A stretch of 64,000 nt of DNA. Source: a virus. The notes under the pieces are model-generated. The model did no database searches and was not told the origin of the DNA. It worked only from the letters and a program-made list of their open reading frames with translations. Each line of letters opens with the position of its first letter. Position 1 is the stretch's first letter. Both the position numbers and the translations under genes were made by a program. Of this stretch, positions 10,053 to 56,270 are shown piece by piece. The stretch spans positions 62,001 through 126,000 of the IMG/VR virus record IMGVR_UViG_3300032308_002010. One strand, 5' to 3'.

Positions 10053-13000
10053 TTACGTATTATCTTCCACAATATGCACTGGGGTGTCCACCTCTATTTC
10101 GCCGCGCCGGTACGCCTGTACGGCATCCTGTTTGCTACGAAATACGCGTGGTTTGGACTTCTTACTAATCCGACTAGACGCCAAGTATAGGCCAGTTTGA
10201 TAGTCTTTGTTAGGCACATAGTGCGCTTTGAAAGTCGACGCTGCAAACAAGTTCTTGCTCGGCAACATCTTTTCTACAGCTTCTTTTGCCGCATCTTCTG
10301 TGCTCGGGACGTGATACTGCATTGCGTCGCCGTCAAAATCGGCGCCAAACCCCTTTGTAATAACGGGGTTTACTTCCATGACTTTGTTCTTAGTTAACTT
10401 GGGGTAGAACGCCATCATGCCGTAACGGTGGAGCACCGGCGCGCGATTAATAACAATTGGACGCGAGGACATCTGCCGGTCTAACTCCGCCCCGGCTTCT
10501 TTGTTCTTGTCCTCGACAGCCTGTAGCGCCTGCATACGCGGTAGACCGCGGCGCACAAGACCCCGCACCACGAATGGCTTGTAAATATCCCACGCTTTCT
10601 CTTCCGGCAGCGCAACCTCGTCCATGTCCAAATCGGGGTTGGGTGTAATGACTGCGCGGCCAACAAGGTCGACTGTCGAGCTGAGCAGTTTGCGCTGGAC
10701 TGTGCCGTACTTGGGCGAGTTACCAAACACATGCCGCAGGAAACCCTTAACGTTGCGCTCGACGTTCTTGGGCTGCTGCGGTTCGCCAAGGCCGCTCACG
10801 GCTTTCATAGAGTCATAGACGCTCAGCCGCTCATCACCGTAATCAGCCAACGTGCCCGACGCTTCTTTCAGCGTGTCATTCGCGTCGAGTAGTTCTTTGT
10901 ACAAATAGTTAGCGTCAGCCACGAGCGGCAGTTTTTTACTGCCCATTGTGCTCACTGGGCGGAAGAGCGGCGGCAAGACGGGAACTTTATTGATCATCCA
11001 GTCTTTGGGGTGCACACCAGTTGTCTCGGCGCTTTTCAAAAAGCCAAGCCGGCGGACAGCAGCATCGCGTAGTGTTTTGCGGCCGGATTTAATATCTAAA
11101 CGCGCCTGCTCAATTGCCTTCGGTAAATTAATACGTTCTAGTGCGGCCTTAATCGCAACGGGTCCGGTTTTGTCGCCCAGCTGCTCACGCCCGGCTAGCA
11201 CGCTGCGGAACTGCTTTTCAGTCATGCCCAGCACGCGCCGAATTGGGTCTTCCATAACTGGGTTAGGAAGCGGCTCGTGCAGCGTAATCTTGCTCCATCG
11301 GTTACCGCCGTGACCGCCAGTCAACGTTTCATCGAAGAGGCCGCCCGCGATTGGCTTGAGCCGGCCCTTCCAGTCAACCGTCTCGGAACTCTTTAACTCA
11401 CGGGCGCCTGCTAGCTCGTCGACGTCTTTGTCGGTCATAGCCATCAGATTTGAGCGCGTACCCTTACGCACGACGTTAATACCAGACGCCTTGAGCTGCG
11501 TGACGAACTTCTCGTAGACATGGGGCACCTTGGGAAGCGGCGGAGTGTAGCCGGCCATGAACTGCGACCAATACTCTGGGTTCGCTTGTCCGCGCACCAT
11601 CTTGGCGTCGCGAATAACTTTACCGGCACCGTGAGAAAGTAACGCGCCAAGGTCGAGCATGCCGACGCGCTTGGCGCCTTCGCTGCCGCCTTTAGCCGGC
11701 GTGCCCTCAGCGGTGTACGCGCCCATCGACCGGCCCTGCGCTTTTGACTCGCTGGTGTGGTGCAACTTCATGAAAAACCGGCTACCAGTCAGTACGCCGC
11801 CGATTTTACGTCCTGTTTCAGGATCGATGACGTCTTCGGTATCTGACAACCCGTGCTTTGAGAGTTCTTTTTGCGCAAACTCAATCAGGTCTGTTTTGTT
11901 ATCAAAGTCTTTAAGCTTGTACGACGAACCGGTTTTAGCTGCGACCTTGCCTAGCGCGGCTTCGATAACCTGCGCGGGGTTAATACGGCTGATCAGGCCC
12001 AGCGGCGAGACGAGAACTTCAAAAGGATTGCCATCGCGGTCTTTGGGCATCTGGTCGTCCGGGACAATCTCAGCCACGACACCCTTGTCGCCAAAGCGCC
12101 CGGTGAGCTTGTCGCCAACGTCCATTGGCGCTTGGTTCTTCACCACAACGCTTACGCCTTTTTTGGTGTGCATAACGTCGGTCACAATACCCGGGGCGTG
12201 ATGCTCCCACGTGATTGTGTCGTTCGTGAAGTTGCCGGCACGACCACGATGCACTTTGCCGTACACGCTGTCTTTCTTCTTAGCCACGAGCACAAGCGGA
12301 TCGCCAAATTTAACTGCGGTGCCTTTTTTAATAGCGCCGTCGTCGTCAAAGTTGTCGAGATACTTTTTGTCGTACTCGGTCGGGAACAAACTCACGAACG
12401 CCTTCTTGCCAACGTGAGTGTTGTCGTCCCACTCGGCTTCGTGCTGATACATATGCTCAGACGTTAGCCGTTTGGATGCAGATTCAGAAATTACGACTGC
12501 GTCTTCGTAGTTCTTGCCGCGAAACGGTAGATATGCCGTACGCAGATTTAAACCGAGCGCTGCGCTACCTTTTTGATCGGTAAAGTTTGAGCGCGCAAGT
12601 AACTGCCCCGGCTCGACGGTATCGCCCGGTTTTACGAGCGGCGTTTGGTGTAAAAACGTCTTCCGGTTGTACGGCATCTCGTTGTATAAATCGATCGTCT
12701 TTTTGTTGCCGTCTTTGTCACGCAGCACTATGCCATCTGGCGTGACATCAACTACCTGCGCGCGCTCAGTGGCTCGTGTCGCCCCGAGCTTTTCGCCCAT
12801 CTCGTCTTCGTGCGACACACCCTCGTCGTCTGCCTTGGCGGATTGCAGCAGCGGCGCCTCGGCGTTTACGAGCGGAAGCGCCTGCGTAAACATACGACTA
12901 CCCATGATCACGCGATGGCCTTTGATCATGGACTTAATCGGTACCATGTTGGACAGTGTCGAGAACGTCGAGTCCATGTTTGGCAGGCTGAACTGCGCTT

Positions 13001-14456
13001 CTTTTCGCGGGACGTACTTGAGCTTGCCATTTACAAGCGCCGCAACTACGGGCAACCCATTGTCTTCTTCACCGGGAAATACCAACGGCGTATCAGCTAG
13101 TTCTTGCGGCGTCTTGTACACCTTGTCGCCGGTTTTCATATCTACAACCGGCGTATACACCTTGCCGTCTGAGCCTTTCATGGCGCCGCGGGCAAACCGC
13201 ATATCAACGCCCACTTTTCCAGACTCGGGCGTGCGCAGGTAGTCGATAAACCCAAGATGGCTGGGTTGAACTGAGCGCGACTCAGCTGGCACGGCGTCCA
13301 GTGAGCCGATGCCCCCTTCGCCCATTCGGGTCACGCGCGTTTGGTGGTCAAAGATCTCGGCCGGGTTGATTTCTTCTAGGCTCGACCCAAGTCCGCTACC
13401 AATGAGCGCGGCTGAGATCGCCTTGTCGAACACGCCGGACGGAATGTGATCGATCGACTTTTTAGCGGTGGCTTTCCAGAGCAGCTTATTAAGCGACTGA
13501 CGATCTTTAGTAAACCGCTCTGCAATAAGGTCTTCCGGGCCGACGACAGACTGGTACACCATGTTGTCGCGGTCGTCGCTCTCGGCCTCGCGGCGATTGA
13601 CGGCGATAAGTTTTTTGGTGATCGCCAGAATAGTTTCCGGCGTCATGTTTTTGTACTCAGACCCCAACGTTCGGCGTGTAACTTCTGGGTCGAGTTCCGT
13701 CTTTGCGAACTCGGCAGCTACGGCTTGAGCTTTAGCGCGCGCGTCGGCACCCGCAACTTGTTTGTTAACAAGCCGGGCGTAGATCTTGTCCATCGTGCCC
13801 GCGTCGCCCTTCTCCATGTTGACGGCGGTAATCTCGTTGCCCCATGCCTTGCGGATGTCCTGATCTGACACGCCCATGGACTTGAGCAACGGCATAAGCG
13901 GGATCTGAGCCTGCCCGATGCTGATCTTGAACACACCGGTTTTGGGGTCGAGGAAGTACCGATGCGAACGGCCTTTACCGGGCAACGTGTTTACGTGCGC
14001 CTCGATCTCGCCGTTGTCTTTCTCGCGGGTAAACACGCCGGGGCGCAAGCGCATCTGGTGGGCCAGTGTGTACTCAACACCACCGTTGACGAACGTGCCT
14101 GAGTCGGTGAGATACGGCACGTGTGCGATCGTGGCGCGGCGCTGGCCAACAGGCTGGCCGGTTTTGTTATCAGTAAGCGTCCACGTACCTTGTAGCCGCC
14201 GGGCAAGTGTCCCTCTGGAAAGGACAGCTTTCTTCTGATCTGACCTTGTAAAACGGTCAGGTCCCGAGTAACCGACATCTTGAAGCTGCAGCGTATAAAG
14301 ATCGTTCTGCAGCGGCTTAAGGCCCTGCGCGCTCGTAAGCGCCTGATTAAAAATGTTATCCCGCATCATGCCGACATCGCCAAACGTGCGCATCGTGGGC
14401 GCAACCGGCGCGGGCATCGTCGGTGATTTTAAATCAGGCAGTTCGGGGGTTGGCAT
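10053..14456 (-). CDS. RNA polymerase beta subunit fused to beta' N-terminal half
   Basis: 1467 residues. Beta landmarks in order: N-terminal lobe with 'TFVNGGVEYTLAHQMRLRPG' (cf. beta 'INGTERVIVSQLHRSPG'). Then 'GKNYEDAVVISE', then 'GDKLTGRFGDKGVV' followed by 'SPLGLISRINPAQVIEAALG', and 'HHTSESKAQGRSMGAYT' near the beta C-terminus. Without a stop, beta' follows: 'GLFDETLTGGHGGNRWSKI', 'VLPPLFRPV', 'VDLVGRAVITPNPDLDMDEV', 'NRAPVLHRYGMMAF' and the catalytic Mg site DFDGD at ~1373-1377. The chain ends ~90 residues later. The beta' Cys4 zinc-binding site is not visible. The remaining beta' is encoded by 7195..9075. Catalytic residues appear intact, so an active enzyme is expected. Confidence 0.95.
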   Translation of the reverse strand: MPTPELPDLKSPTMPAPVAPTMRTFGDVGMMRDNIFNQALTSAQGLKPLQNDLYTLQLQDVGYSGPDRFTRSDQKKAVLSRGTLARRLQGTWTLTDNKTGQPVGQRRATIAHVPYLTDSGTFVNGGVEYTLAHQMRLRPGVFTREKDNGEIEAHVNTLPGKGRSHRYFLDPKTGVFKISIGQAQIPLMPLLKSMGVSDQDIRKAWGNEITAVNMEKGDAGTMDKIYARLVNKQVAGADARAKAQAVAAEFAKTELDPEVTRRTLGSEYKNMTPETILAITKKLIAVNRREAESDDRDNMVYQSVVGPEDLIAERFTKDRQSLNKLLWKATAKKSIDHIPSGVFDKAISAALIGSGLGSSLEEINPAEIFDHQTRVTRMGEGGIGSLDAVPAESRSVQPSHLGFIDYLRTPESGKVGVDMRFARGAMKGSDGKVYTPVVDMKTGDKVYKTPQELADTPLVFPGEEDNGLPVVAALVNGKLKYVPRKEAQFSLPNMDSTFSTLSNMVPIKSMIKGHRVIMGSRMFTQALPLVNAEAPLLQSAKADDEGVSHEDEMGEKLGATRATERAQVVDVTPDGIVLRDKDGNKKTIDLYNEMPYNRKTFLHQTPLVKPGDTVEPGQLLARSNFTDQKGSAALGLNLRTAYLPFRGKNYEDAVVISESASKRLTSEHMYQHEAEWDDNTHVGKKAFVSLFPTEYDKKYLDNFDDDGAIKKGTAVKFGDPLVLVAKKKDSVYGKVHRGRAGNFTNDTITWEHHAPGIVTDVMHTKKGVSVVVKNQAPMDVGDKLTGRFGDKGVVAEIVPDDQMPKDRDGNPFEVLVSPLGLISRINPAQVIEAALGKVAAKTGSSYKLKDFDNKTDLIEFAQKELSKHGLSDTEDVIDPETGRKIGGVLTGSRFFMKLHHTSESKAQGRSMGAYTAEGTPAKGGSEGAKRVGMLDLGALLSHGAGKVIRDAKMVRGQANPEYWSQFMAGYTPPLPKVPHVYEKFVTQLKASGINVVRKGTRSNLMAMTDKDVDELAGARELKSSETVDWKGRLKPIAGGLFDETLTGGHGGNRWSKITLHEPLPNPVMEDPIRRVLGMTEKQFRSVLAGREQLGDKTGPVAIKAALERINLPKAIEQARLDIKSGRKTLRDAAVRRLGFLKSAETTGVHPKDWMINKVPVLPPLFRPVSTMGSKKLPLVADANYLYKELLDANDTLKEASGTLADYGDERLSVYDSMKAVSGLGEPQQPKNVERNVKGFLRHVFGNSPKYGTVQRKLLSSTVDLVGRAVITPNPDLDMDEVALPEEKAWDIYKPFVVRGLVRRGLPRMQALQAVEDKNKEAGAELDRQMSSRPIVINRAPVLHRYGMMAFYPKLTKNKVMEVNPVITKGFGADFDGDAMQYHVPSTEDAAKEAVEKMLPSKNLFAASTFKAHYVPNKDYQTGLYLASSRISKKSKPRVFRSKQDAVQAYRRGEIEVDTPVHIVEDNT

Positions 14457-35396: not shown

Positions 35397-36185
35397 TTAT
35401 TCAGCGTTTTTCTGCAGCTGCGCTAATACCCGGGCAGCGCTTTCTTTCACTTCCTCGTCACCCGAGTCTTCCGACTTTTCTTCGGACTTCTCTTCTTTCT
35501 CTTCGCTTTCGGGCTTTTCTTTCTTCTTGCTAAAACTAGCGCCGATGTTCGCGCCGATGTTACCGCCCATGTGAGCGCCAGCGCCCAGACCAGCAGCGCC
35601 GCCAGCCAGTAAACCCAATCCAGCGCCCGGGCCGCCACCAAGGGCGCCGCCACCCAGCGCGCCCAGAATCCCGCCACCAGCGCCGCCAGCAAGGCCGCCG
35701 AGACCGCCGCCGGCCAAGCCGCCGAGCACAGAGAGCACAGAAGCTTTCTTACCTTCCCACGAGGGCTTGCCGAGAGCTGCGTCAGCTGCGGCATAGCCGC
35801 CGACGCCGCCCAACACCGCTCCGGGGACACCCCCGCGAACAACAGAATTACCGAAGTGACTCACTGCGTTTTGCACGCCGGCTCGCGTCGGGCCCATAAC
35901 GCGTGGCGGGCGGGGTCGAAACTTGCCGCGTGTCGCTAACATAGCGAGCAGCGTGCCAAGCATCATGCCGCCGGTCGAGCCAGCACCTGTGCTCAAGCCT
36001 TTTACAGCTCCGCGGCCAGTACTCTCCATGCGCATTTTGATATCGTCGGCGCCAGACACACTACCAGTTGGCGCTGTAACGGCGCCCAAGCCCGCGCCAA
36101 TACCGGCAGCTGCTGGTAGTGTAAAGAATGCTTTCTTCATTTGCTGGCCCATCTGCATCCCAAACTGCTGCGGCGTAATAGTCAT
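35397..36185 (-). CDS. Glycine-zipper virion-like protein with Q-F-G tag
   Basis: 262 residues from ATG 36185 (CAGGTGACCGA precedes it), giving the N-terminus 'MTITPQQFGMQMGQQMKKA', matching the EFG-tag set. The frame is open to 36311, which would overlap the helicase stop by 23 bases, so a 304-residue form cannot be excluded. It has many Gly-rich hydrophobic segments (e.g. 'GGLAGGGLGGLAGGAGGGIL') and a highly acidic/lysine tail (KKKEKPESEEKEEK). A membrane-active or internal virion protein is likely. Confidence 0.7.
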   Translation of the reverse strand: MTITPQQFGMQMGQQMKKAFFTLPAAAGIGAGLGAVTAPTGSVSGADDIKMRMESTGRGAVKGLSTGAGSTGGMMLGTLLAMLATRGKFRPRPPRVMGPTRAGVQNAVSHFGNSVVRGGVPGAVLGGVGGYAAADAALGKPSWEGKKASVLSVLGGLAGGGLGGLAGGAGGGILGALGGGALGGGPGAGLGLLAGGAAGLGAGAHMGGNIGANIGASFSKKKEKPESEEKEEKSEEKSEDSGDEEVKESAARVLAQLQKNAE

Positions 36186-36288
36186 TCGGTCACCTGTGGC
36201 TTGCATGGAGTTTTGAATCTTGCGGGTGGCAACGTGCTGCATGATCTTCTCAAACAGCTTGCGCCGCGACAACGCCAGTTCCGTGAGT

Positions 36289-38550
36289 TTACTTACTGGA
36301 ATCGGCGGCATTGTCTTCGTCCAGAATACTCTTGCTGGGTTGTTCTTTGGCGTCTGGATATTTTAACAGCCGGCGCTTCTTCTTTGAAAGCGGGCGTTTC
36401 GGCACGTCTGGCGTGAGTTTGAGCGAACGAAACACTGCGCTGGCTTTCTCTTCTTGCGGCGCCTCTTTTGTTAATAACCGGTTGCGGCGCTTGAGATACT
36501 TTTGTAACTCCTGCTCCTGATACGCCTCCAGCATCGTTTTCACTTTGTCTGCCTTGGTGGGGGCGACTAGTTTCGCGGGGTCAATCGCCCAGTTTCGCAG
36601 CGCCCAGCCTCTGCGCGGCGTGGGCTTCGTCGAGAACGGCCCGCCATGGCGCGCTTTGAAGCTCGCCCACCGCTTGATCTGCCGCGTATCTTCGTCGGGG
36701 ATTCTGCGGCCGGAGTTATAGTTCTGGTACCACTCCAGCCAGCCCTTGGGGTCATGCTCCGTGACCCATTCTGGTTTCCATTCTCCTAAACTAGCGAGCC
36801 GCGGGCCTTCTTTTTCGTACAGCGATTTATACACACCCATGCGATGTAACTGGCCGGGTGTGAAGTCCGGCTGGAAGTCTGGTAGCTCAGCCTCCGCGTG
36901 TTTAAAAAGCGCAGGCACAACGCACACCACCTGACCCGGTTCTGCTTCGGTGGTGTGTTTGGGGTCAGAAACCGGAAAAAGTACCCCTCGTTGTGCCTGC
37001 GCAGTTTTATTATTTGCTTGCTGTTCTTGCTCTTTTTGTTTGCGATACTTGTCGCCCTCGTCTTTCAAGATCTTACGGAAGATCTCGTTGAGCTGTTCTT
37101 TTTCGGCCGTGAGGTGTTCGAGCACTTCGTCGCCGGTGCGCTCGCGCTTGTACCCCATGAGCTTACCAATCATGCTCGGGTCTTGGCTGGCGCTTAGATA
37201 TCTTTGGACTTGGACGTTCTTGAGTTCTTCAGGGAGATCTCGATGCGAGTCAAAACGTAAGCCACGACCGCGAGCTTGCTGGCTACGCGACTCATGCCAG
37301 TGCGGGTCTAAGAGCTGAATAAGACTCGTGCCCTTCGTTGACAAGCCTTCGGCGCCAGCAGGGCCAATTAAGAGCGCCCGCAGCTTACCTGTGTTGTATG
37401 CGTCCACGGCAGCTTGGCGCGCTTTTGGTGTGACGCCGCCGTGAAAGAACGCATGCGGGATCTTGGCTTTCTCTAGGCCAGCTGCATAAGGCGCCAAGCC
37501 AGAGTCAATGAAGTTTGAGTAAATGATGGCTTTCTTGCGCTTGTCTTCACCCAGTGTCTTCTGCAAATTCTGGAACGCCGTCTGTAACTTGGCGCTCTGC
37601 TGAAACGCCTTGCCCGGGTCTTTGTCGGCCCGAAACGGCTGTGTACTAAGACTTACTTGGCGCAAGCCAGTTAAGAAGCTATTTAACTTCGCTAGCTCGT
37701 CTTTACTTAACGGAAACTCTTGATCCAGCTTCCACAAGAACCCCGGCGGAATCTTCGTACGAATAGCCTTCTGAATCTTGTCCTGCGCTGGCGATAACGG
37801 CACACGCACGACTTCTTCTTTGACGTCGACGCCTTCAGGAGTCTTGCTGGGCTGATAGTCAACTTTGCCCTGCAGCAACTGGCGTAGCTCTTGCTCGTTC
37901 TTGACGACTGGCTTGACGCCGGGCTTCACGCCACGCAGCCAGCCAAACAAGCCGGGCCGCACAGTCTTATAATCTATGTAGCGCTTCTCAAACTCTTCGG
38001 GTGAGATCTGTTTATTGTTCAGCATCGATAACAAACTCGCCAAGTCCGTGGGCGAGTTTGTGATCGGCGAGCCTGTTAATAACATCAGCCGTTTAGCTTG
38101 CGCGGCGGCTTCAGCAGCGCCCGCAGAACTGGCGCTTCCCGGATTACGAAGTCTGTGCGCCTCGTCCATGATCAGCGTGCCGGGCTGCTGCTGGAACTTC
38201 TTGCCCAGCGCCAGCCCCGTGTAGCTCATGATCTCAGGGTTCGAGTTGCGCGTGAACTTCTTGATCTCTTTGTCAAAGTTGCCGCGTAAGCTCGCCGGGA
38301 CTACCACGCCATACTCTTCGCCGTCTTGCTCTTTGGCAGCTTCGGCGGCAGCGAGCGACGAGAGCGACTTGCCCGACCCTAAGCCGTGATAGACCAGCAA
38401 TCTGGGGTCAGGGCCGGCAATGCGATCGGCGATGCGTTGCTGATGCTCTTGCAGCTGGATCTCAGGCAAAAGCTCAGCGATTTTGTGCCACAGCCCAGCC
38501 GGCAACGCAGATTTTTTCATCGGCTGGTCATCGTCGAGAATGCTGTTCAT
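36289..38550 (-). CDS. SF2 helicase resembling viral D6/D11-type helicases
   Basis: 753 residues. Motif I 'LVYHGLGSGKSLSSLAAAE' (~52-70), II 'LIMDEAHRLRN', III 'LMLLTGSPITNS', V 'ALLIGPAGAEGLS' and VI 'SQQARGRGLRFDSH' are intact. The context 'LDPHWHESRSQQARGRGLRF' resembles helicases D6/D11 of large eukaryotic DNA viruses, which act in transcription. The C-terminal ~150 residues contain 'HDPKGWLEWYQNYNSGRR' and basic tracts. With a phage RNAP in the same genome, a transcription role is plausible. Chromatin-style SNF2 remodelling or DNA repair are alternatives. Confidence 0.85.
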   Translation of the reverse strand: MNSILDDDQPMKKSALPAGLWHKIAELLPEIQLQEHQQRIADRIAGPDPRLLVYHGLGSGKSLSSLAAAEAAKEQDGEEYGVVVPASLRGNFDKEIKKFTRNSNPEIMSYTGLALGKKFQQQPGTLIMDEAHRLRNPGSASSAGAAEAAAQAKRLMLLTGSPITNSPTDLASLLSMLNNKQISPEEFEKRYIDYKTVRPGLFGWLRGVKPGVKPVVKNEQELRQLLQGKVDYQPSKTPEGVDVKEEVVRVPLSPAQDKIQKAIRTKIPPGFLWKLDQEFPLSKDELAKLNSFLTGLRQVSLSTQPFRADKDPGKAFQQSAKLQTAFQNLQKTLGEDKRKKAIIYSNFIDSGLAPYAAGLEKAKIPHAFFHGGVTPKARQAAVDAYNTGKLRALLIGPAGAEGLSTKGTSLIQLLDPHWHESRSQQARGRGLRFDSHRDLPEELKNVQVQRYLSASQDPSMIGKLMGYKRERTGDEVLEHLTAEKEQLNEIFRKILKDEGDKYRKQKEQEQQANNKTAQAQRGVLFPVSDPKHTTEAEPGQVVCVVPALFKHAEAELPDFQPDFTPGQLHRMGVYKSLYEKEGPRLASLGEWKPEWVTEHDPKGWLEWYQNYNSGRRIPDEDTRQIKRWASFKARHGGPFSTKPTPRRGWALRNWAIDPAKLVAPTKADKVKTMLEAYQEQELQKYLKRRNRLLTKEAPQEEKASAVFRSLKLTPDVPKRPLSKKKRRLLKYPDAKEQPSKSILDEDNAADSSK

Positions 38551-41408: not shown

Positions 41409-42119
41409 CTAGGCAGCGGCCACGGCGGCCGTACCGCCGCGCATCGCCTTCACCTTCGCCTCAACGGCGGGGAGGATCCGGGCCAGCGTGCTCTTCTCCA
41501 CACCGCCCTCGAACAGCGCGTAGAGCGCCGACGAGGTGCAGAGCGTCGTAGACGCGGCGAACAGCATGCCAGTGGCCTGAATGACAATGTTGGTAGCACC
41601 AAGCTTCGCGGCGACTGCCGCTGCCGTGATGCCAACCACACCGCCGACCGTGAAGCCCACGCCAATCGCAGCAGCAGCCGCGACCAGCTTGAGCATGCCG
41701 GCGTTGATGTCACTCACGTTCATGGAGCTGACCAGCTCGTGAACGGCGGTCAGCGCCTTCTTGGCCTGACCATAGGCAGCGGTCGCCGTCTCCTTCAGCC
41801 AGCCGACCAGCGCCGTGACAGCCTCCTCGAACGCGTTGTACACGCGGCCGAGGAACGACCAGACACCGCTGGCGATCCGCTTGATCGCATCAGCAATGGT
41901 CTCGATCACCGTCAGCACGCCCGACCCGAGGGCCGAGAGCGTGTCGACCACCAGCGAGTTGGTGCGACTTAGCAAGCTCTCATCGGCGAGAGCGCGCTGG
42001 ACAGCGGCGTCGATCTCAGCATCGGTCAGCTCAGGCTTCTTGGCCCGGTTGACCTTACCGACCTTGACCTTCGCCTTCACGCCACGGGTCTTTGCGGGGA
42101 TCTTCTTCGTTGCACTCAT
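41409..42119 (-). CDS. Lys-rich N-terminus plus membrane-segment protein
   Basis: 236 residues after AAGGAACTGTTCAG. Residues 1-30 are histone-like (KKIPAKTRGVKAKVKVGK...). Two long amphipathic/hydrophobic regions follow (~60-110 and ~135-200, 'AAAAAIGVGFTVGGVVGITA'), likely membrane-associated. Codon use is GC-richer than its neighbours. It has its own promoter-type element at 42212..42248 and terminator at 41342..41394, so it is a monocistronic unit and probably strongly expressed. Function unknown. Confidence 0.75.
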   Translation of the reverse strand: MSATKKIPAKTRGVKAKVKVGKVNRAKKPELTDAEIDAAVQRALADESLLSRTNSLVVDTLSALGSGVLTVIETIADAIKRIASGVWSFLGRVYNAFEEAVTALVGWLKETATAAYGQAKKALTAVHELVSSMNVSDINAGMLKLVAAAAAIGVGFTVGGVVGITAAAVAAKLGATNIVIQATGMLFAASTTLCTSSALYALFEGGVEKSTLARILPAVEAKVKAMRGGTAAVAAA

Positions 42120-42211
42120 CTGAACAGTTCCTTAAACATGAGGACACGATTACACCGAAACCCATGTAATCTATATGGGGGTACCGGCTACACACCGATA
42201 CCAAGGGGGGA

Positions 42212-42248
42212 TCATTAGATATACCCGGCTTTTTGGCTTTATTTAGCT
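42212..42248 (-). promoter_or_regulatory. Phage promoter-type element, copy 1
   Basis: Minus-strand AGCTAAATAA (42248-42239), exactly 10 bases, then CCGGGTATATCTAATGA (42228-42212). It shares sequence and spacing with three other copies upstream of minus-strand genes. It lies ~93 bases before the start of 41409..42119 and just after the stop of 42250..43335. Its promoter role is inferred from repetition, position and the ATATCTA -10-like core. Confidence 0.8.
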
Positions 42249-42249
42249 A

Positions 42250-43335
42250 TCAGCCATTTTGCCGGGTTTTCACCACCATCTGCGAGCGGCCGGGCCACAA
42301 TACCATCTGTTGCATTGTGTCCTCGTCCGTTACGTCTTTCAGTAACTGCAGAGCTGTTACTGGTCGCTGCGCAATACTATCTTTACGCTCGTCGGTCAGA
42401 CTGTTGCGCAGCACAGCCTGAAGCGCGGTATATCGGGGATACGTCACCCACTCATTCTCATCATCGTTCTCTGGGTTGTACTCAGCGTACGGCCCAGCCA
42501 CGTAATGATTCGTTTGCACAAGGCCATGCGGCTTGGTGCGAATGGTTGATTTCTCTCCAACATGCGTTACTACAGTGTGTTCACGGGCTTTGGTGCCAAC
42601 CACGTGCGCAAAGAACGGCACGATGGTTTCATAGCTCCGTAACCCAAGAATCAGACTGTTGTAACTTTTTGGAAATCGGTCGCAGACGGCTCGGACCCGC
42701 TGTAACACGGGCCACCTAAAGAGCAGCGCCGGCGCCGATAACCAGCCAAGCAAGCTATTCAGTTTGTTAACAACTGGAGCCTGATTGACAGTGACAGCCC
42801 ACGAATCACCCATAGCCGATATCACGCCCACCATGCCCGCCACGCCTACAGATGTATAAGCGCTGCGCCCACGGTGAAAGCGAAAGATCCGCGTGTGCCT
42901 GCCTGTACTGCGAGGCACAACCCAGTCCATGTTACGGACCAGCACGGGAGACTTCTCGACCTCAAAGCTGACGCTAGAGCAGCCACAACCATACATCTCA
43001 GAAAGAGAAGTAAAGTCGTAGATGAGGTTTCCCAACATGAGCTTACCCACAGGAACTTCGGCGTGCCGGGCTATGCACGCTAACTCCTGTGTGTAATCTT
43101 CGCCAAACATGCCGACCATTTGGCGAAGTAACCAGCCGCCACCGGACGCCATCGCATGCACAGCCGTGATAAGCGGACTGGGCAGGTGTGGCGCCAATGT
43201 CTCTTCGATCTCTTCTTCGACATCGGAGAGAATGGACTGAATGGCGTCTCCGTTTTGGATAGCAAAATCAGTCCAGCGTTCGTCAGCGGGTGCGTCCAGA
43301 TCAATGTCATGGACTTTCCCGGTGAAGAGCTTCAT
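42250..43335 (-). CDS. Acid ceramidase/NAAA-like amide hydrolase
   Basis: 361 residues. The signature 'YDFTSLSEMYGCGCSSVSFE' then 'RNMDWVVP' (134-141) matches the nucleophile segment of acid ceramidase/N-acylethanolamine amidase (CTSI...RNLDW), with Cys 119 the candidate nucleophile. 'AVTVNQAP' and 'GLVQTNHY' agree with the later conserved Asn-containing loops. In the usual family an N-terminal segment is cleaved before the Cys. Here ~118 residues precede it. Likely hydrolyses an amide bond in a lipid or small molecule. Cellular target unknown and unusual for a phage. Confidence 0.75.
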   Translation of the reverse strand: MKLFTGKVHDIDLDAPADERWTDFAIQNGDAIQSILSDVEEEIEETLAPHLPSPLITAVHAMASGGGWLLRQMVGMFGEDYTQELACIARHAEVPVGKLMLGNLIYDFTSLSEMYGCGCSSVSFEVEKSPVLVRNMDWVVPRSTGRHTRIFRFHRGRSAYTSVGVAGMVGVISAMGDSWAVTVNQAPVVNKLNSLLGWLSAPALLFRWPVLQRVRAVCDRFPKSYNSLILGLRSYETIVPFFAHVVGTKAREHTVVTHVGEKSTIRTKPHGLVQTNHYVAGPYAEYNPENDDENEWVTYPRYTALQAVLRNSLTDERKDSIAQRPVTALQLLKDVTDEDTMQQMVLWPGRSQMVVKTRQNG

Positions 43336-43601
43336 GACGTTTTCCTTTCCAGTCGCGAGTTTAGTCGCGAGACCTGTTCACGCAGCAGATCGAACGCCTG
43401 CGCTCTGACCTTGTCTCCCTCGACCATCTGCTCTATCAGGGTGAGGAGACGCAGCTGGTTTTCCTCCAGCGCCGTGATACGGGCGTTGGTGTCAGCAAAC
43501 ATGATCTGAACGCCGCGGTTTACGGAAAGATCGTTCTTGTCCGTCTGCGGGAGCGCGGCAGGAAACAGGGACCCGATATCGGTTTCAAACAGATTACTCA
43601 T
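43332..43601 (-). CDS. Small coiled-coil protein
   Basis: 89 residues after AAGGAGAATGACCG. Residues ~38-85 form a heptad-like helix (ITALEENQLRLLTLIEQMVE). Its stop and the hydrolase start overlap as ATGA, so it is the first gene of a two-gene unit starting at the promoter element 43671..43707. Oligomeric partner or regulator is possible. Function unknown. Confidence 0.7.
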   Translation of the reverse strand: MSNLFETDIGSLFPAALPQTDKNDLSVNRGVQIMFADTNARITALEENQLRLLTLIEQMVEGDKVRAQAFDLLREQVSRLNSRLERKTS

Positions 43602-43670
43602 CGGTCATTCTCCTTAGCCGCACAGCAGCGGCAGAAAGATATCAGAACAACCCAGTGCACTACTGGGGTA

Positions 43671-43707
43671 TCACTGAATATGACCGGAATCAGGCTTTTA
43701 TTTAGCT
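43671..43707 (-). promoter_or_regulatory. Phage promoter-type element, copy 2
   Basis: Minus-strand AGCTAAATAA (43707-43698), 10 bases, CCGGTCATATTCAGTGA (43687-43671). It lies 70 bases before the start of 43332..43601 and just after the stop of 43721..45373. Same motif and spacing as copies 1, 3 and 4. Confidence 0.8.
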
Positions 43708-43720
43708 ATCAGCGCTGGGC

Positions 43721-45373
43721 TTAATCTAGCGAGCTAAGATCGAGGCCGCCCTGCCATTGAGGAGGCTTAGCGGCAGGTGTAATACCCTGCAACTGCCCCC
43801 ATGTCCGCGCGTTCGTTGTCGGGCCGCCCCACGCGGTGAGCTGGGACCGAATCTTCTCGCCAGTCTGGGTATCACTCATGTTGCGGCGGCCCATGCCAGC
43901 CATCACGCGCTCGAATCTGGCTTGGGCATCAGACATGGCAACTCGCGCCTGTTGCGTATCGCCAAAGCGGGGAAAACCACCGGGAACGGCGCCGGGCATC
44001 CGCATGCGAGACTGCGGCGGCTGAGCTGGGCGCTTACTGGCACGCATGAGATAATTATTTACGTTTTCCATGATGTCTGGGTGGCGCATCAAGCTTTCGC
44101 CACGAGCTGCAGCGAGCGGGCCAGCCACAGACGGATGCACGTTGGCGATGTTTAACTTGGGGGCTACAGCCTTGGCCGCCGTATTAGCTACGGCCTTTGC
44201 GCCACCACCAAATAACCGACCAAGGCCGCCAAAATTGAGCCCGGCTTCTTTGCCAAACTCATACGCGCTGGAGCACTTGCAGTTCCATTTGCGCAAGGAT
44301 TTATTAATGCGTGAGTCAGGGTCTTTCTTTGTATCAGCGCCAGTGTTTACACGTTTCATACCGCACATCCTTGAGCAAAAAGAGTTCTGACGCTTGGCCC
44401 GGTCACCTTTGGGTTTGCTCTCAGTTACGGGAGCTTTTAAGTTTCCACCTGTCTCGCGTTCGTAGCTTTTGCGGCCCTTTTCATTGAGCCCGCCCTCTTC
44501 ATTTTTACCAGCAGAACGTTGCCACGCAGGAGTACCGGATTGCTTTTCGGCGCTAATACTGGTGACCTTTTTCCAGCTTTTGCTATCTGGATAGTCTTTG
44601 TCGCCGGGCTTAGCTTTTTTCCCGCCGCGTTCGCGCTTCATGCGAATTCGGTCCCATAACCCAAGCGCGCCGGCTATCTTTTCGCTGCCTACTGAGTTAG
44701 CCGTCCCAAAAGCCGCGTTCCCTGTGATGTCGCCAGATGAAGAGAGCGCGCCATAGGAGTTAATAGGGTTGGCATTGGGAGAGGAACCGCCGCCTACTGG
44801 GGGAAGCTGGCCAGACGGCGCGGGAGATCCCATATTCGCCGGTTGGGCTGCAGGAGCTTGCGGTTGGCCCTGTGGCGCCGCTGCCTGCATACCCATCGGT
44901 AGGGGCGTACCAGCCGCCGGCATGGCATAGTGCTTTAAATTAGCGTTTGCAGGCATGCGGGCGGCCTCTCGGGCCTCCATTTCAGCTCTTTCGTTCTCTA
45001 ACGCCTGCATGATGGGCTGCGACAAGACAGCAGAAAGCTTCGCCATGAGCGGGTTTACTGCACTTTTTGGCTTTATTTCTGAGTTACACCGTTCGCCCTT
45101 GGTTTTGACAACAGTAGGTGGGTTTTCGCCTGCTTCTGTTGGCTTATCACTGGCCGGCTGTTCGATATAGACCTCTTTTGTGTCCGCTTTCTTGGATAAT
45201 TTTCTGTAAATATCGACAGCGACTGTATTTACGGCAGATTGTTTATGAGTTGTTTTTTTATTGGCGTACATAGGGAGTTTCTTTTTGGTTGGATACTCGT
45301 GCGCCCAGCGTTTTGCGATGTCTGGATGCTCTGCCCAAAGAAATCTACGCTGTTTTTCGGACTTAAAGGGCAT
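43721..45373 (-). CDS. Modular virion-like protein (QRRFLW + DUF6321-like + EFG)
   Basis: 550 residues. N-terminal 'MPFKSEKQRRFLWAEHPDIA' is a short motif common in phage proteins. A Pro/Gln-rich linker covers ~150-230. Residues ~281-366 ('TPAWQRSAGKNEEGGLNEKG ... ERETGGNLKAPVT ... SFCSRMCGM ... RKWNC') fit the DUF6321-type phage domain, which carries Cys residues. 'SAYEFGKEAG' (369-378) repeats the EFG tag seen in other virion-like genes. The C-terminus is basic and Met/Pro-rich. Probably a virion or morphogenesis protein. Confidence 0.72.
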   Translation of the reverse strand: MPFKSEKQRRFLWAEHPDIAKRWAHEYPTKKKLPMYANKKTTHKQSAVNTVAVDIYRKLSKKADTKEVYIEQPASDKPTEAGENPPTVVKTKGERCNSEIKPKSAVNPLMAKLSAVLSQPIMQALENERAEMEAREAARMPANANLKHYAMPAAGTPLPMGMQAAAPQGQPQAPAAQPANMGSPAPSGQLPPVGGGSSPNANPINSYGALSSSGDITGNAAFGTANSVGSEKIAGALGLWDRIRMKRERGGKKAKPGDKDYPDSKSWKKVTSISAEKQSGTPAWQRSAGKNEEGGLNEKGRKSYERETGGNLKAPVTESKPKGDRAKRQNSFCSRMCGMKRVNTGADTKKDPDSRINKSLRKWNCKCSSAYEFGKEAGLNFGGLGRLFGGGAKAVANTAAKAVAPKLNIANVHPSVAGPLAAARGESLMRHPDIMENVNNYLMRASKRPAQPPQSRMRMPGAVPGGFPRFGDTQQARVAMSDAQARFERVMAGMGRRNMSDTQTGEKIRSQLTAWGGPTTNARTWGQLQGITPAAKPPQWQGGLDLSSLD

Positions 45374-45502
45374 CGCGTAGCTCGTGCGAAATGATGCGCG
45401 GCTGTTCCCAAGCTGAATACGCCCATTTTGTCATAAGCGGGTCAAGAAGAAAAGGAGCAATACATTTTGTTAGAATAATGTGAGGACGGCGGGAACAATA
45501 GT

Positions 45503-45589
45503 ATGTTAAAACCACCACATAACTTTTGGATATACGTGTTGCTGGCTGCGTGGAGTACATTCTTATTGTGGTACGGGCCGCATTTTTGA
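45503..45589 (+). CDS. 28-residue membrane peptide upstream of thioredoxin
   Basis: ATG 45503 encodes a 28-residue peptide (MLKPPHNFWIYVLLAAWSTF...GPHF) ending at TGA 45587-45589, 20 bases before the thioredoxin start on the same strand. It is one hydrophobic helix with a short polar N-terminus. The ribosome site (GGGAACAATAGT) is weak. It may be a leader or a small membrane partner of the oxidoreductase. Confidence 0.45.
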   Translation: MLKPPHNFWIYVLLAAWSTFLLWYGPHF

Positions 45590-45609
45590 AACACGAGGGG
45601 CGGACACAT

Positions 45610-45936
45610 ATGCGCACACTATTTTTAATCGTTGGAATGCTCTGCGTGATGGGTATGGGAAAAGCCTGCGCCGATACCGTGCTAATGTTCTCTGCAGACT
45701 GGTGTAAGTACTGCAAACTGGCCAAGAATGATTTACTGGCGAATAAAGACGAAGTGGCGGCGTGGGGCGTGACAGTTATTGATGCCGATGTGAGCAAAGA
45801 TCTGGTTCGCAACTATGGCGTGAAGACGCTGCCGACGTTTATCTATCTAAATGACGCCGGGGAAGAACTGGATAGAGTGGCAGGCTATAAGGGATATAAC
45901 CGGCTACGGCGTTGGGTTGAAAAGAGCGCGCGCTGA
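45610..45936 (+). CDS. Exported thioredoxin-fold protein
   Basis: 108 residues from ATG 45610 after GAGGGGCGGACACAT. Signal peptide (~1-22, 'LFLIVGMLCVMGMGKACAD'), active site 'SADWCKYCKLA' (CxxC) and cis-Pro loop 'VKTLPTFIYL'. This is a periplasmic thioredoxin/DsbA-like oxidoreductase. It is one of only two clear plus-strand protein genes and converges on minus-strand genes. Substrates could be the Cys-rich phage proteins such as 59744..64000, which is inference. Confidence 0.88.
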   Translation: MRTLFLIVGMLCVMGMGKACADTVLMFSADWCKYCKLAKNDLLANKDEVAAWGVTVIDADVSKDLVRNYGVKTLPTFIYLNDAGEELDRVAGYKGYNRLRRWVEKSAR

Positions 45937-45937
45937 T

Positions 45938-45962
45938 AGCTAAAGAAAAGACGCAGCTTTTC
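45938..45962 (-). terminator. Weak hairpin between converging genes
   Basis: GAAAAG-ACGCAG-CTTTTC (45945-45962) followed on the minus strand by TTTAGCTATC. Short and AT-rich, so at best a weak or bidirectional terminator. It lies between the ends of the thioredoxin (+) and 45966..46163 (-) genes. Confidence 0.4.
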
Positions 45963-45965
45963 CTG

Positions 45966-46163
45966 TTATAGGGTCTTTACGGCGCTGAACTGTTTTATCA
46001 TCTGCATCACATAACTGAGCAGCGCCGAGTTATCTCCCGGAAGCTCAGTTATGACGTGGTGCATGATTCCGAGCACGAGTACAAGAGCCTGTCGGTCATG
46101 CTCTTTTGACGCGTGCTGTACCGCTTGAAACATCATGACTGTGATGATATCCGCAGGGGTCAT
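45966..46163 (-). CDS. Small helical hypothetical protein
   Basis: 65 residues from ATG 46163 after AAAGGAACCTA. Three short hydrophobic helices (VMMFQAVQHAS, LVLVLGIMHHVI, LLSYVMQMIKQF) without a clear membrane span. A strong terminator ends only ~16 bases before its start, so its expression would need read-through or a separate promoter. Function unknown. Confidence 0.6.
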   Translation of the reverse strand: MTPADIITVMMFQAVQHASKEHDRQALVLVLGIMHHVITELPGDNSALLSYVMQMIKQFSAVKTL

Positions 46164-46178
46164 TAGGTTCCTTTAGTT

Positions 46179-46222
46179 AAAAAAAAGCGCATGCAGGGTC
46201 AGGGTGTGATACCTGCATGCGC
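46179..46222 (-). terminator. Strong intrinsic terminator after 46228..46449
   Basis: An 11-bp perfect stem (GCGCATGCAGG/CCTGCATGCGC, 46187-46197 with 46212-46222) followed on the minus strand by TTTTTTTT. It lies 6 bases after the stop of 46228..46449 and just before the ribosome site of 45966..46163. Confidence 0.85.
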
Positions 46223-46227
46223 TCCGC

Positions 46228-46449
46228 CTACTGGGCTGAGAGTGTTGTCCACTCGCCAATGTAGGTCTGTTCCAACGGATTGATGATCCGAGGCTTGGGC
46301 ACCGGGGCAGGGCGTGGAGCCGGGGGAGCTATACCGACGGGCTGTTGCCAGCGCGCCGTAAACTCGTCCCAGCCTTTCGGGGCCTTGGCTTGATCCGAAA
46401 CCCACCCAATGAGCGCCAGACTACCAAGGATCATAAGCAGCGTGGTCAT
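46228..46449 (-). CDS. Small membrane/Pro-rich protein
   Basis: 73 residues after GAAAGGAAATAGC. An N-terminal hydrophobic helix (LLMILGSLALIGWVS) and a Pro-rich C-terminal half (APPAPRPAPVPKPR). Single gene between promoter element 46510..46546 and terminator 46179..46222, so an autonomous, probably well-expressed unit. It could be a membrane-anchored small effector. No family recognised. Confidence 0.7.
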   Translation of the reverse strand: MTTLLMILGSLALIGWVSDQAKAPKGWDEFTARWQQPVGIAPPAPRPAPVPKPRIINPLEQTYIGEWTTLSAQ

Positions 46450-46509
46450 GCTATTTCCTTTCTTTCAATCGTGACGGGCAAGACGTAATTTTTGGCTTAC
46501 GCCTATCCG

Positions 46510-46546
46510 TCACTAAATATGACCGGAAATAGCAGGTTATTTAGCC
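46510..46546 (-). promoter_or_regulatory. Phage promoter-type element, copy 3
   Basis: Minus-strand GGCTAAATAA (46546-46537), 10 bases, CCGGTCATATTTAGTGA (46526-46510), 61 bases before the start of 46228..46449. Its upstream box overlaps the stop codon of the small gene 46537..46650. Same spacing as the other copies. Confidence 0.8.
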
Positions 46547-46650
46547 CGCAAGAAAACCACCAGATCGAGGTCGTCTTCTTCGTCATCGTCAAAGCTTTCG
46601 ATGTAGATCGGCTCAAAGCTGGGGCGCATATACGTACCTACCGACGACAT
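46537..46650 (-). CDS. 37-residue acidic peptide
   Basis: ATG 46650 encodes MSSVGTYMRPSFEPIYIE... ending '...VVFLRAK'. Residues ~19-30 are almost all Asp/Glu. Its stop (TAA 46537-46539) lies inside the promoter-type element for the next gene. A TATAAT sequence ~35 bases upstream (near 46675) could serve as a -10. Small and unproven, but the coding content is coherent. Confidence 0.4.
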   Translation of the reverse strand: MSSVGTYMRPSFEPIYIESFDDDEEDDLDLVVFLRAK

Positions 46651-46832
46651 GGGGCGTGTACCGTGTCGCAATTATACGGTTTTGATAACATGTCCCCTAT
46701 TCGGTAAGGATTAGGCACGCAAGTTTCTTACAACTAATCGACGTAACGTATTGATACGTAAGTACTTAGGACGCGCAGGTTTTTCCTGTTTGCCGTAAGT
46801 CTTTGCGCGCCAATATGTTACGTCTAATAGCT

Positions 46833-46865
46833 AAAAAAAAGCGCGCCGCGGCGGCTTCGCCGCGG
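46833..46865 (-). terminator. Strong GC-rich terminator
   Basis: 8-bp stem CCGCGGCG/CGCCGCGG (46846-46853 with 46858-46865), then on the minus strand CGCGCTTTTTTTTAGCTATTAG. It ends the hairpin-rich transcript coming from the 47197..47424 unit. Confidence 0.85.
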
Positions 46866-47190
46866 GCATTATGGGCGCGTGACAAGGCTCGCGTCTCCCA
46901 TAAGCAGCTGTATGGGTAGTTGCGTACCCACCCGGTCCGAACACACCAGCCGCAACGCCGGCGTGTTCAGACGCGCTTTTTTTCCGGGCTATTCGCAATT
47001 ACCCGGCGTTCAATACTCTCTTGCGATTGAGAGGAGGAGCATCGAAGACATCCTCAAAATGAAACACCTCGCTGGGAATTGCACCCAGCCTACTAGCTAC
47101 GTAACACCCGCTTTTAAGGCTTCGGTCCGTAGCGGCGATCCGTGATCAGCGGATTGCCGGCAGTGTCTCTAGTGAGGTGGTAGTCGCGAG
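46866..47190 (-). ncRNA. Hairpin-dense non-coding stretch
   Basis: About 325 bases with no convincing gene. It has many perfect stems on the minus strand: GTAGTCGC/GCGACTAC (near 47181-47201), GCTGGG/CCCAGC (near 47081-47099), CCGGG/CCCGG, CTCTC/GAGAG, CGCGTCT/AGACGCG and TGGGTA/TACCCA. It lies between a small gene and a strong terminator, so it is either a long structured 3' UTR or a separate RNA. No Rfam-type family recognised. Confidence 0.5.
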
Positions 47191-47196
47191 TTGCGA

Positions 47197-47424
47197 CTAC
47201 GAAACAGGCTCGAACTCGGCGTCGATCACCGTGTAGCTGTCGTAGTCGTCGTTCAGGATTGCTGCCTCTGCCGGGATGCACTCGCAGACGCCCAGCGAGT
47301 GGTGGCAGTAGCAGCAGCGCTCGGTGTCGGTATCGGGCACCGGCAGCACGAACACAACCATCACGTCCCGGTAGTCGTCCACGTTGACATTCACAGCCGG
47401 GTTGTTGCGCAATTGACTAATCAT
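47197..47424 (-). CDS. Small Cys-rich hypothetical protein
   Basis: 75 residues from ATG 47424, chosen because AAGGAGG lies just upstream. The frame is open to 47478. 'RCCYCHHSLGVCEC' is a likely zinc-binding cluster. The N-terminal part is acidic with beta strands (YRDVMVVFVLPV). It is expressed from the promoter element at 47607..47643 through a ~170-base hairpin leader. Function unknown. Confidence 0.65.
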   Translation of the reverse strand: MISQLRNNPAVNVNVDDYRDVMVVFVLPVPDTDTERCCYCHHSLGVCECIPAEAAILNDDYDSYTVIDAEFEPVS

Positions 47425-47477
47425 CTCATCGTCCTCCTTGAAGAGAGAAATAAAACTGCCGTCGTCTCGTGACGGCA

Positions 47478-47600
47478 CACGCTAATGGTCTCTCGCCATT
47501 AGACGGCCCTAACATGTCGCCGGTTAGGGGGTGCGGCTGAGGGTACGTATAACTTCACGCGTAAGGCCAGTGGCTATACCACTGCCGCGGCGAGAGCTAT
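47478..47600 (-). promoter_or_regulatory. Structured 5' leader with three hairpins
   Basis: Between the promoter element and the gene at 47197..47424 are stems CTAATGG/CCATTAG (47482-47488 with 47496-47502), CCCTAAC/GTTAGGG (47507-47513 with 47523-47529) and CAGTGG/CCACTG (47568-47573 with 47579-47584). These could stabilise the mRNA or control translation. Confidence 0.5.
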
Positions 47601-47606
47601 AGGTCC

Positions 47607-47643
47607 TCAATAGATATGCCCGGATTTTTGGGTTTATTTAGCT
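47607..47643 (-). promoter_or_regulatory. Phage promoter-type element, copy 4
   Basis: Minus-strand AGCTAAATAA (47643-47634), 10 bases, CCGGGCATATCTATTGA (47623-47607). It follows the terminator of the large structured RNA by only 14 bases, so transcription stops and restarts here. Confidence 0.82.
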
Positions 47644-47657
47644 GCGGGCCGATAGCT

Positions 47658-48127
47658 AAAAAAAAAGCCGGCAGGGGAGCGCACCCCTGCCGACTCTTGG
47701 CGAATTAACGAGTCGCCACCCGTGCCGAAGCGACCAATCGGTCGCCAAGAAAGCGTTAGCACAAGAAACGCTCGCGAGGACAGGTATCACTACCCGCCTA
47801 CGCCCTGCAGCCGTTTGTTAGGTTACAGACAAGTTCGCACTGTACGGGCGCAAACTTTGATTACTGAAAATCCGTCTGGCAGGTCTTTCACCTGCACCAC
47901 TCGCTCCCCTAGTCATATGTAGTGTAGTCGAGTGGAGCCACTTGGAATAGCCACGAGGCCCGGGCAGGGCTTGCCCGCTATTCCGCCATCTACCCTAACG
48001 GTTCCTGCAAAACATTTCACAAAAACCGCTCGTCACAGCCCTCTGCATGCACCTAGAGATAGGTTCATACACATGCTTCTCGCGAGCGCTTCTTGTGCCA
48101 ACGTCTGGATTCTAGCATCCATGTTGG
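47658..48127 (-). ncRNA. Large structured RNA (~470 nt) with 25-bp closing helix and terminator
   Basis: Bases 48079-48103 pair with 47754-47778 in an unbroken 25-bp helix. The two non-identical positions are G.U pairs on the minus strand (A.C on the plus strand), so the RNA is minus-strand. Inside are stems GGAATAGC/GCTATTCC, CCACTCG/CGAGTGG, GCAGG/CCTGC and AAGTTTGC/GCGAACTT (with a U.G pair). 3' of the helix come GCGACC/GGTCGC, GGCGA/TCGCC and a 9-bp terminator (47669-47692) with nine T. No open reading frame explains it. No known RNA family recognised. It may be a 3' extension of 48128..48415 or an independent RNA. Confidence 0.75.
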
Positions 48128-51911: not shown

Positions 51912-52256
51912 TGGAGGCGGCGGGAATCGAACCCGCGTCCAGAGATATCTCCAGAAAGAACGTCTACGTGTGTAGGCAGTTGTTGTTTACACTCCTGCCA
52001 AAGTTAGCCGATTATCGGCGTCAGGTGGGCTACCACCATCTTGCCCTTTCTTACTGGGCCAGATCAGCCGATTATCGGCGTCAACCTGATTGGGCAATAA
52101 GGCTCAGGTCGCCTCACTCACTGGCCTATTAACTAGGCAGCGAGGGCCGGAGCATAAGCGCCAGCTAGAAACGTAATCGGCTTTTAACGTGGCCCACCGA
52201 TCAACCACGACACGCAGTCCTAACCTTCCTTATCCTGTCGAAACCAGTACGCCCCC
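51912..52256 (-). ncRNA. ssrA: tmRNA (phage-encoded ssrA)
   Basis: 345 bases. 5' end GGGGGCGTACTGGTTTCGACAGG is the canonical tmRNA start. The 3' end is a T arm (GCGGGTTCGATTCCCGC) plus CGCCTCC and discriminator A pairing with the 5' acceptor strand. The tag frame (52165-52133) encodes AGAYAPALAA and stops at TAG, ending in the usual ALAA degron. CCA is not encoded. It rescues stalled ribosomes by trans-translation and marks the product for degradation. Phage tmRNAs are known but uncommon. Confidence 0.93.
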
Positions 52257-55302: not shown

Positions 55303-55992
55303 TTACTTCATCGTGGTCATGCGCGGACGCGCCAAGTTAGGCGTGTTCGGCCACTGACAGTTCCCGTTTGGGCAATCTTCTTCCGGCGGCGCGGCTTTAC
55401 GCTTTGCCGGCGAAGAGGATTTTGCTGGGCGGACCACAGCTTGCTCGCGTGCCGGCGCTTTGCCGTTGGGCCATATCGCCTCAGATGGCGGCCCGTTAAT
55501 CACGTGAGCTTTCCATTGGCCCTTCTCAACCCGCGCATACAACTGATATTCGCACAGCTCCCAGCGCGGCAGCAACCCAGACCGATGCCGATACTCCGTG
55601 TAGTCGACATCTTCGTCCTTGGGCATAGTCCACTGCGTTATCTGCACAGCGGCCCACAGACCCTTGGTATCGCGCCAGCTTGTGATCCACCGGCAATCCA
55701 CAAGCCTGATGTAGACGTCTGTGTCGTCAAACATCTGCTGGCACTCCTGCACGAAGTTCTCGCGGTCTGGACAGTTCGAGGTCATCGTGCTCATTAGCGT
55801 TTTGAGATCTTCCGCGGTGTGAGCTTGGAAGTTCTGCTCCATCACCTCACGAATCGCGGCAGTGGCCGCTTCGACGTATCGCGCCTCGCCGGGGTCGGAC
55901 ACGCTGTTCCACTTGCCTGTCTTTTTATTTGCTTGCGCAAAGACTGGCATACACAAAACAGAAAACATAAGAGCGTAAACAAACCTATTCAT
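55303..55992 (-). CDS. Exported protein, possibly NTF2-like
   Basis: 229 residues. Signal peptide 'MNRFVYALMFSVLCMPVFAQ'. Residues ~38-160 are a helix plus curved beta sheet pattern ('IREVMEQNFQAHTAEDLKTL ... VYIRLVDCRWI ... VQITQWTM ... YQLYARVEKGQW'), like an NTF2/SnoaL-type fold. The C-terminal ~60 residues are Pro/Lys-rich with 'DCPNGNCQW'. Overlaps the small membrane gene by 8 bases. Role unknown. Confidence 0.6.
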   Translation of the reverse strand: MNRFVYALMFSVLCMPVFAQANKKTGKWNSVSDPGEARYVEAATAAIREVMEQNFQAHTAEDLKTLMSTMTSNCPDRENFVQECQQMFDDTDVYIRLVDCRWITSWRDTKGLWAAVQITQWTMPKDEDVDYTEYRHRSGLLPRWELCEYQLYARVEKGQWKAHVINGPPSEAIWPNGKAPAREQAVVRPAKSSSPAKRKAAPPEEDCPNGNCQWPNTPNLARPRMTTMK

Positions 55993-56173
55993 CTCGCTGA
56001 CTCCTTGTTAAGCACACGTGGGCAAAGCCGCCTAAAAGCGCCCAGCCCGCACATGCACCTATTACGGTTACCTCTTCTCCTAGGTGGAGTGACTTCGCCG
56101 CTGAGAACCCAATAGCGGCGCCGGCCAAGGTACACATAACAATCAAGACTTCACGCACAATCGGGTATGGCAT
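55985..56173 (-). CDS. Small two-helix membrane protein
   Basis: 62 residues with two hydrophobic helices (~5-26 'IVREVLIVMCTLAGAAIGFS', ~34-55 'VTVIGACAGWALLGGFAHVC') and a charged end. Short, holin-like topology. A diverged promoter-type element lies ~60 bases upstream. Function unknown. Confidence 0.6.
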   Translation of the reverse strand: MPYPIVREVLIVMCTLAGAAIGFSAAKSLHLGEEVTVIGACAGWALLGGFAHVCLTRSQRDE

Positions 56174-56233: not shown

Positions 56234-56270
56234 ACAAGGAATATGCCCGAATATTGCCCAAAATTTAGGC
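56234..56270 (-). promoter_or_regulatory. Diverged promoter-type element, copy 5
   Basis: Minus-strand GCCTAAATTT (56270-56261), exactly 10 bases, TCGGGCATATTCCTTGT (56250-56234). It matches the four clear copies at 6 of 10 and 12 of 17 positions, counting R, K, Y and N as matches, and keeps their spacing. It lies between the glycosyltransferase stop and the start of 55985..56173. Confidence 0.5.

Follow-up and report, generated by a model that had tools for sequence, protein, structure and literature searches.

A recurrent bipartite element in a phage genome

A 37-base element with two conserved boxes recurs upstream of genes in the stretch of viral DNA analyzed here (the window, 64,000 bp, corresponding to bases 62001-126000 in a virus record of 193,815 bp). 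This locus raises the question of whether the element is a promoter and, if so, which polymerase reads it. A first-pass annotation had listed four copies and interpreted them as a probable private phage promoter. All four are exact at the positions it gave on the minus strand, with none expected from 100 dinucleotide shuffles, and the 10-base gap between their boxes is identical in each. A search permitting up to three mismatches to that pattern found no site beyond these four. The pattern describes the four sites correctly but is incomplete, and it was ruled out as the full set because a position weight matrix recovers a second form in which TTT replaces AAA. One copy of this form lies in the window (56234-56270), and two further sites are found elsewhere in the record. 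The window sites and the open reading frames (ORFs) that follow them are listed below.

42212-42248, minus strand: proposed promoter site 1, with -35-like CTAAAT at 42241-42246 and -10-like TATATC at 42218-42223; inferred start at approximately 42211-42212, then a 5' hairpin and a 236-aa ORF
41409-42119, minus strand: 236-aa ORF after site 1, function unknown, kept with its proposed promoter in four genomes
43671-43707, minus strand: proposed promoter site 2, with a -35-like box at 43700-43705 and -10-like CATATT at 43677-43682; then a hairpin and an 89-aa ORF
43332-43601, minus strand: 89-aa ORF after site 2
46510-46546, minus strand: proposed promoter site 3, with a -35-like box at 46539-46544 and -10-like CATATT at 46516-46521; then a hairpin and a 73-aa ORF
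46228-46449, minus strand: 73-aa ORF after site 3, kept with its proposed promoter in three genomes
47607-47643, minus strand: proposed promoter site 4, with a -35-like box at 47636-47641 and -10-like CATATC at 47613-47618; then a 75-aa ORF
47197-47424, minus strand: 75-aa ORF after site 4, kept with its proposed promoter in three genomes
47657-47694, minus strand: intrinsic terminator (GC hairpin and T run, with a TTAGCTAT tail) immediately upstream of site 4
56234-56270, minus strand: proposed promoter site 5, second variant (CCTAAATTTT..GGGCATATTCCTTGT), absent from the first-pass list; next come a hairpin and then a 62-aa ORF that is conserved across five of seven genomes
55985-56173, minus strand: 62-aa ORF after site 5

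A motif search over the complete genome and its relatives, which the first-pass annotation had proposed as a check, yielded 7 sites in the 194-kb record and 57 in seven genomes of ∼200 kb scanned in full, including the window's own record. The 57 sites all score above 26 bits with an iterated matrix and the next score is 13.5, whereas reversed and column-permuted matrices return only zero to three sites. The same motif ranks first in an unguided count of dyads in intergenic upstream regions, and the first-pass pattern is present in 11 of 12 long relatives. The family consensus is aGCTAAAT-n17-[C/T]ATAT[T/C]-n3-TG, in which GG precedes the right box. Across the seven genomes, little or no variation is seen in CTAAA, in ATAT, or in the G at motif base 24. 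When the gap was scanned in these genomes, 56 matches were recovered at 10 bases and none at 4-9 or 11-14; three matches at a gap of 15 are sites already counted at 10. Variable box spacing was therefore rejected for the seven genomes. No convincing covariation supports an internal inverted repeat within the motif.

Placement of the sites and the predicted transcript

Judged from the sequence, the sites are built like a sigma-type -35/-10 promoter, with a pair of boxes separated by ∼17 bp that precedes genes in the direction of transcription. A motif lying mainly inside genes would have refuted the promoter interpretation, but 50 of the 57 sites are intergenic in genomes that are ∼92% coding, and the remaining seven fall only within antisense ORF calls, most of them small. 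Every one of the 57 sites reads in the direction of the main gene strand. Downstream of them, the first ORF preceded by a ribosome-binding site begins in most cases after 30-180 nt. For window sites 1-4 the distances to the next gene start are 92, 69, 60, and 182 nt, compared with the 60-180 originally reported. The sites follow a stop or terminator as described: site 1 lies 1 nt past a 361-aa ORF, site 2 lies 13 nt past a 550-aa ORF, site 3 contains the stop codon of a 30-aa ORF, and site 4 sits directly behind the terminator. This acidic 30-aa ORF (46537-46629, minus strand) had not been listed, and similar endings occur in genomes G002 and G006. The ORF between sites 1 and 2 (42250-43335, minus strand) gives a weak match (E 3e-6) to NAAA-beta, the N-terminal domain of acid amidases, which is unusual in a phage.

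Across six orthologous groups, motif identity is ∼0.75-1.0 (0.5 in the spacer) compared with 0.3-0.45 upstream, so that the motif stands as a conserved footprint amid diverged flanks. Terminator-like structures are found just upstream of 19 of the 57 sites, versus 37 of 658 control starts. The folding-energy z score reaches its minimum of -1.7 at the end of the motif and is near zero by +20, and the 5' hairpin mostly begins 0-3 nt past the motif. Orthologs preserve its stem by paired changes, as in CTGCTG/CAGCAG and CTACTG/CAGTAG.

The simplest explanation for this arrangement is that CTAAAT, the left box, would act as a -35 element, with the -10 function falling to [C/T]ATAT[T/C], the right box, exactly 17 bp away. 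Since the hairpin begins at the end of the motif, the inferred RNA start is close to motif base 37-38, the position also predicted by a -10 box at motif bases 26-31. The transcript would then open with the hairpin, and a short gene with its ribosome-binding site would follow. An order of terminator, promoter, hairpin, and gene would make each small gene an independent cassette, and both the hairpin and a turnover of cassettes are seen at the sites. T4-type phages reportedly carry mobile promoter-stem-loop cassettes, in which an early promoter and the stem-loop behind it are shuffled together with their gene. The order of elements described here, from terminator to small gene, may form an exchangeable unit of comparable design, with a different promoter sequence and different factors.

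The sequence TTAGCTAT occurs directly after terminator T runs, often followed by CAGCGC (for example at 47652-47659, 46827-46834, and 45936-45943, minus strand). It is present in 28 upstream regions of the seven genomes, compared with 0.4 expected, and may mark the borders of gene cassettes.

It could be argued that the element is not a promoter at all, but rather a 5' untranslated RNA element or another type of DNA-binding site, such as an operator, an origin repeat, or the end of a recombination cassette. In favor of this idea, the element is found where gene cassettes adjoin, in a part of the genome that changes rapidly, and has a hairpin after it; the TTAGCTAT tail suggests conservation of the cassette borders. 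However, because a third of the sites lie behind terminators, the upstream RNA would often not include the motif, and the hairpin begins after the motif and not inside it. The uniform orientation of the sites and their fixed 17-bp geometry also argue against such functions, which we regard as very unlikely. Thus, the promoter nature of the sites is well supported by their intergenic placement and, as described below, by their restriction to one phage group, with the transcription start being inferred.

Restriction to one phage group and comparison with host promoters

An 18-base version of the motif has 46 exact matches among 2.9 million viral contigs, and 43 of these are homologous to the seven genomes at the protein level. 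In a 257-Gb collection of genomes from bacteria and archaea there are seven matches, which is about the number expected by chance. The element therefore merits its earlier description as private, and a host promoter of such form is unlikely. It also had been judged not to be a plain sigma70 promoter, which is borne out by the boxes themselves, as they do not correspond to TTGACA and TATAAT and their spacing never varies.

One could still imagine that the sites are read by host RNA polymerase (RNAP) with a host sigma factor, either sigma70 or a sigma28-like protein, perhaps aided by a phage activator bound to the left box, in the manner of T4 middle promoters. Host RNAP serves T4 middle and early promoters with sigma70 or MotA/AsiA. 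The arrangement TAAA-n15-(c/g)GGCATAT resembles the sigma28 (FliA) promoter TAAAGTTT-n11-GCCGATAA in geometry and in its -35 region, since TAAA and the 15 bp from it to the -10 octamer are shared, and the -10 box is partly like TATAAT. However, the octamer here, (c/g)GGCATAT(t), differs from GCCGATAA, so that TAAA-n15-GCCGATAA is not matched. Further points against host sigma recognition are the chance-level occurrence of the pattern in cellular genomes, the lack of any ±1 variation in spacing, and the presence of separate TATAAT-like sites elsewhere in these genomes. This explanation seems quite improbable to us, although an activator acting with host RNAP remains possible.

Each genome has only 5-11 sites, and most genes must therefore be served by promoters of other kinds. 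No second strong promoter class was found in the clade, where the other recurrent upstream elements are ribosome-binding sites, terminator tails, parts of tRNAs, and some TATAAT- or TATACT-like sites.

Phage RNA polymerase and sigma factor

The suggestion that a phage enzyme or factor reads the sites is strengthened by the finding that both an RNAP and a sigma factor are encoded by the phage; recognition itself is inferred. The relevant genes are as follows.

10053-14456, minus strand: beta-beta' fusion of 1467 aa, with Rpb2_6 and Rpb1_2 domains; the clamp-helix region and GADFDGD are kept in its beta' part
7195-9075, minus strand: remainder of beta', 626 aa, with an Rpb1_5 domain
35593-36435 of the record, outside the window: sigma70-family protein of ∼280 aa

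Each genome carries a single multisubunit RNAP set, which qualifies as bacterial in type by its beta and beta' domains and the catalytic DFDGD motif. The alpha subunit domain PF01000 is absent from the seven records searched, an absence shared with other phage RNAPs. With the window RNAP as query, 49 viral loci were retrieved, several of them on contigs of ∼200 kb, and no genome carrying this RNAP was found in GTDB when hosts were sought. Published moraphages were ruled out as the home of the clade, given that they lack an RNAP.

The sigma70-family protein is present in all seven genomes and in 37 viral loci. Sigma70_r3 is detected above the Pfam cut-off (E 2e-8), region 4 exceeds the cut-off in one member, and region 2 is weak in Pfam. 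A profile of the protein matches SigA (E 5e-7) and RpoD from region 2 through region 4, so that regions 2, 3, and 4 occur in order. The predicted structure matches bacterial sigma factor folds with modest model confidence (mean pLDDT 65). On the basis of these sequence and model comparisons, the protein appears to be a divergent sigma factor of bacterial type.

The phage sigma may redirect host RNAP to the sites while the phage RNAP serves other promoters. Jumbo phages with a sigma factor and no RNAP are thought to redirect host RNAP in this manner (reviews), and the sigma factor found here is bacterial in type. However, this phage has its own RNAP that retains the clamp-helix region where sigma docks, and the corresponding proteins of phage Arash occur in the same particle. 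Redirection of host RNAP is therefore unlikely in our estimation, although it cannot be dismissed. The most likely reader is instead a holoenzyme composed of the phage RNAP and the phage sigma, a match that is inferred and for which there are no binding data.

Related motifs in phages Arash and D69

Salmonella phage Arash, a distantly related isolate, and Vibrio phage D69 resemble the clade in having an orthologous RNAP, a gp10-type sigma, and the 17-bp frame. The window RNAP is orthologous to Arash gp206 and the sigma to Arash gp10. The Arash orthologs of the RNAP and sigma (gp206, gp216, and gp10) are abundant in virions; gp206 has the top spectral count among virion proteins, and gp216 and gp10 are also strong (PMC10585845). 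The virion list comprises 116 proteins with likely contaminants, and its authors allow for carry-over (PMC10585845).

The exact motif of the clade is absent from Arash and D69. Unguided counts reveal that each phage has a motif of its own, GGTATAAG in Arash and GTTATAAG in D69, accompanied by TCAATA or TAAATA as the -35-like box at the spacing seen in the clade. Their -10 boxes end in AAG, whereas those of the clade end in ATT or ATC, and each phage has ∼35-40 sites compared with the 5-11 per genome noted above. The bipartite motif is on the minus strand, the non-structural one, in 42 of 43 cases in Arash and 33 of 34 in D69. In Arash this strand carries replication, metabolism, and tRNA genes, while virion genes are on the other strand, which points to early or middle genes as the targets.

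A second sigma factor is present in both phages (Arash gp196 and D69 VPHD69_0246, 42% identical) and was not found in the clade. Similarity to gp196 also was tried as a route to the sigma of the clade and was rejected, as there is no ortholog and a weak match near 153 kb of the record is a different protein. The gp196-type sigma could read the Arash and D69 motif, so the pairing of this motif with gp10 remains unproven in these phages.

By extension from Arash, the holoenzyme probably would be packaged in the clade as well and injected along with the DNA. If so, its promoters would serve the genes needed first; both packaging in the clade and early timing are inferences. Only 4 of the 57 sites lie inside the sigma-to-RNAP block of virion genes, which is fewer than expected (P 0.004) but not zero. 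Without transcript data, our preferred interpretation, held with somewhat more confidence than doubt, is that the sites are private, probably early, promoters of a packaged phage sigma-RNAP holoenzyme.

Other candidate RNAs and a tmRNA in the window

Between positions 47657 and 48103 (minus strand) is a region of ∼450 nt with no ORF or Rfam match. It forms one large branched fold and ends in the terminator before site 4. The structure is found in the same place in genomes G002, G003, G005, G006, and G007, and among six sequences 32 of the 165 predicted pairs are changed on both sides, making it a candidate for a new large structured phage RNA. A second highly structured noncoding stretch (46837-47200, minus strand), poorly conserved in relatives and with a terminator at its end, lies upstream of site 3. 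A phage-encoded tmRNA with the tag GAYAPALAA is located at 51912-52256 (minus strand) near several tRNA genes.

Implications for phage transcription

Reviews describe jumbo phages with their own multisubunit RNAP as lacking sigma homologs, and sigma-encoding jumbo phages as lacking an RNAP. The lineage examined here has both, and thus departs from the known pattern. Early promoters of the phiKZ/AR9 type consist of one AT-rich element of ∼10 nt near -10. They resemble the system proposed here in combining a private AT-rich motif, placed ahead of early operons, with a packaged multisubunit phage RNAP, but they have a single box and no sigma homolog, whereas here a sigma70-family protein accompanies two boxes separated by 17 bp. 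The sites therefore do not conform to the phiKZ type.

A broader hypothesis, which we consider evenly balanced between being right and wrong, is that this whole lineage, comprising the freshwater clade together with Arash and Vibrio phage D69, injects an entire multisubunit RNAP holoenzyme that depends on sigma, with the sigma70-family protein as its packaged specificity subunit. Sigma and promoter would have diverged together into lineage-specific codes within the same 17-bp frame. The combination of an RNAP, a sigma factor, and a clean cognate promoter set could reveal sigma-dependent initiation in a viral enzyme, and specificity could be mapped by comparing the three sigma-promoter pairs that occur naturally within one frame. 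Such pairs could become orthogonal parts for gene expression, and the motif provides a simple predictor of operons and early genes for a group known mostly from metagenomes.
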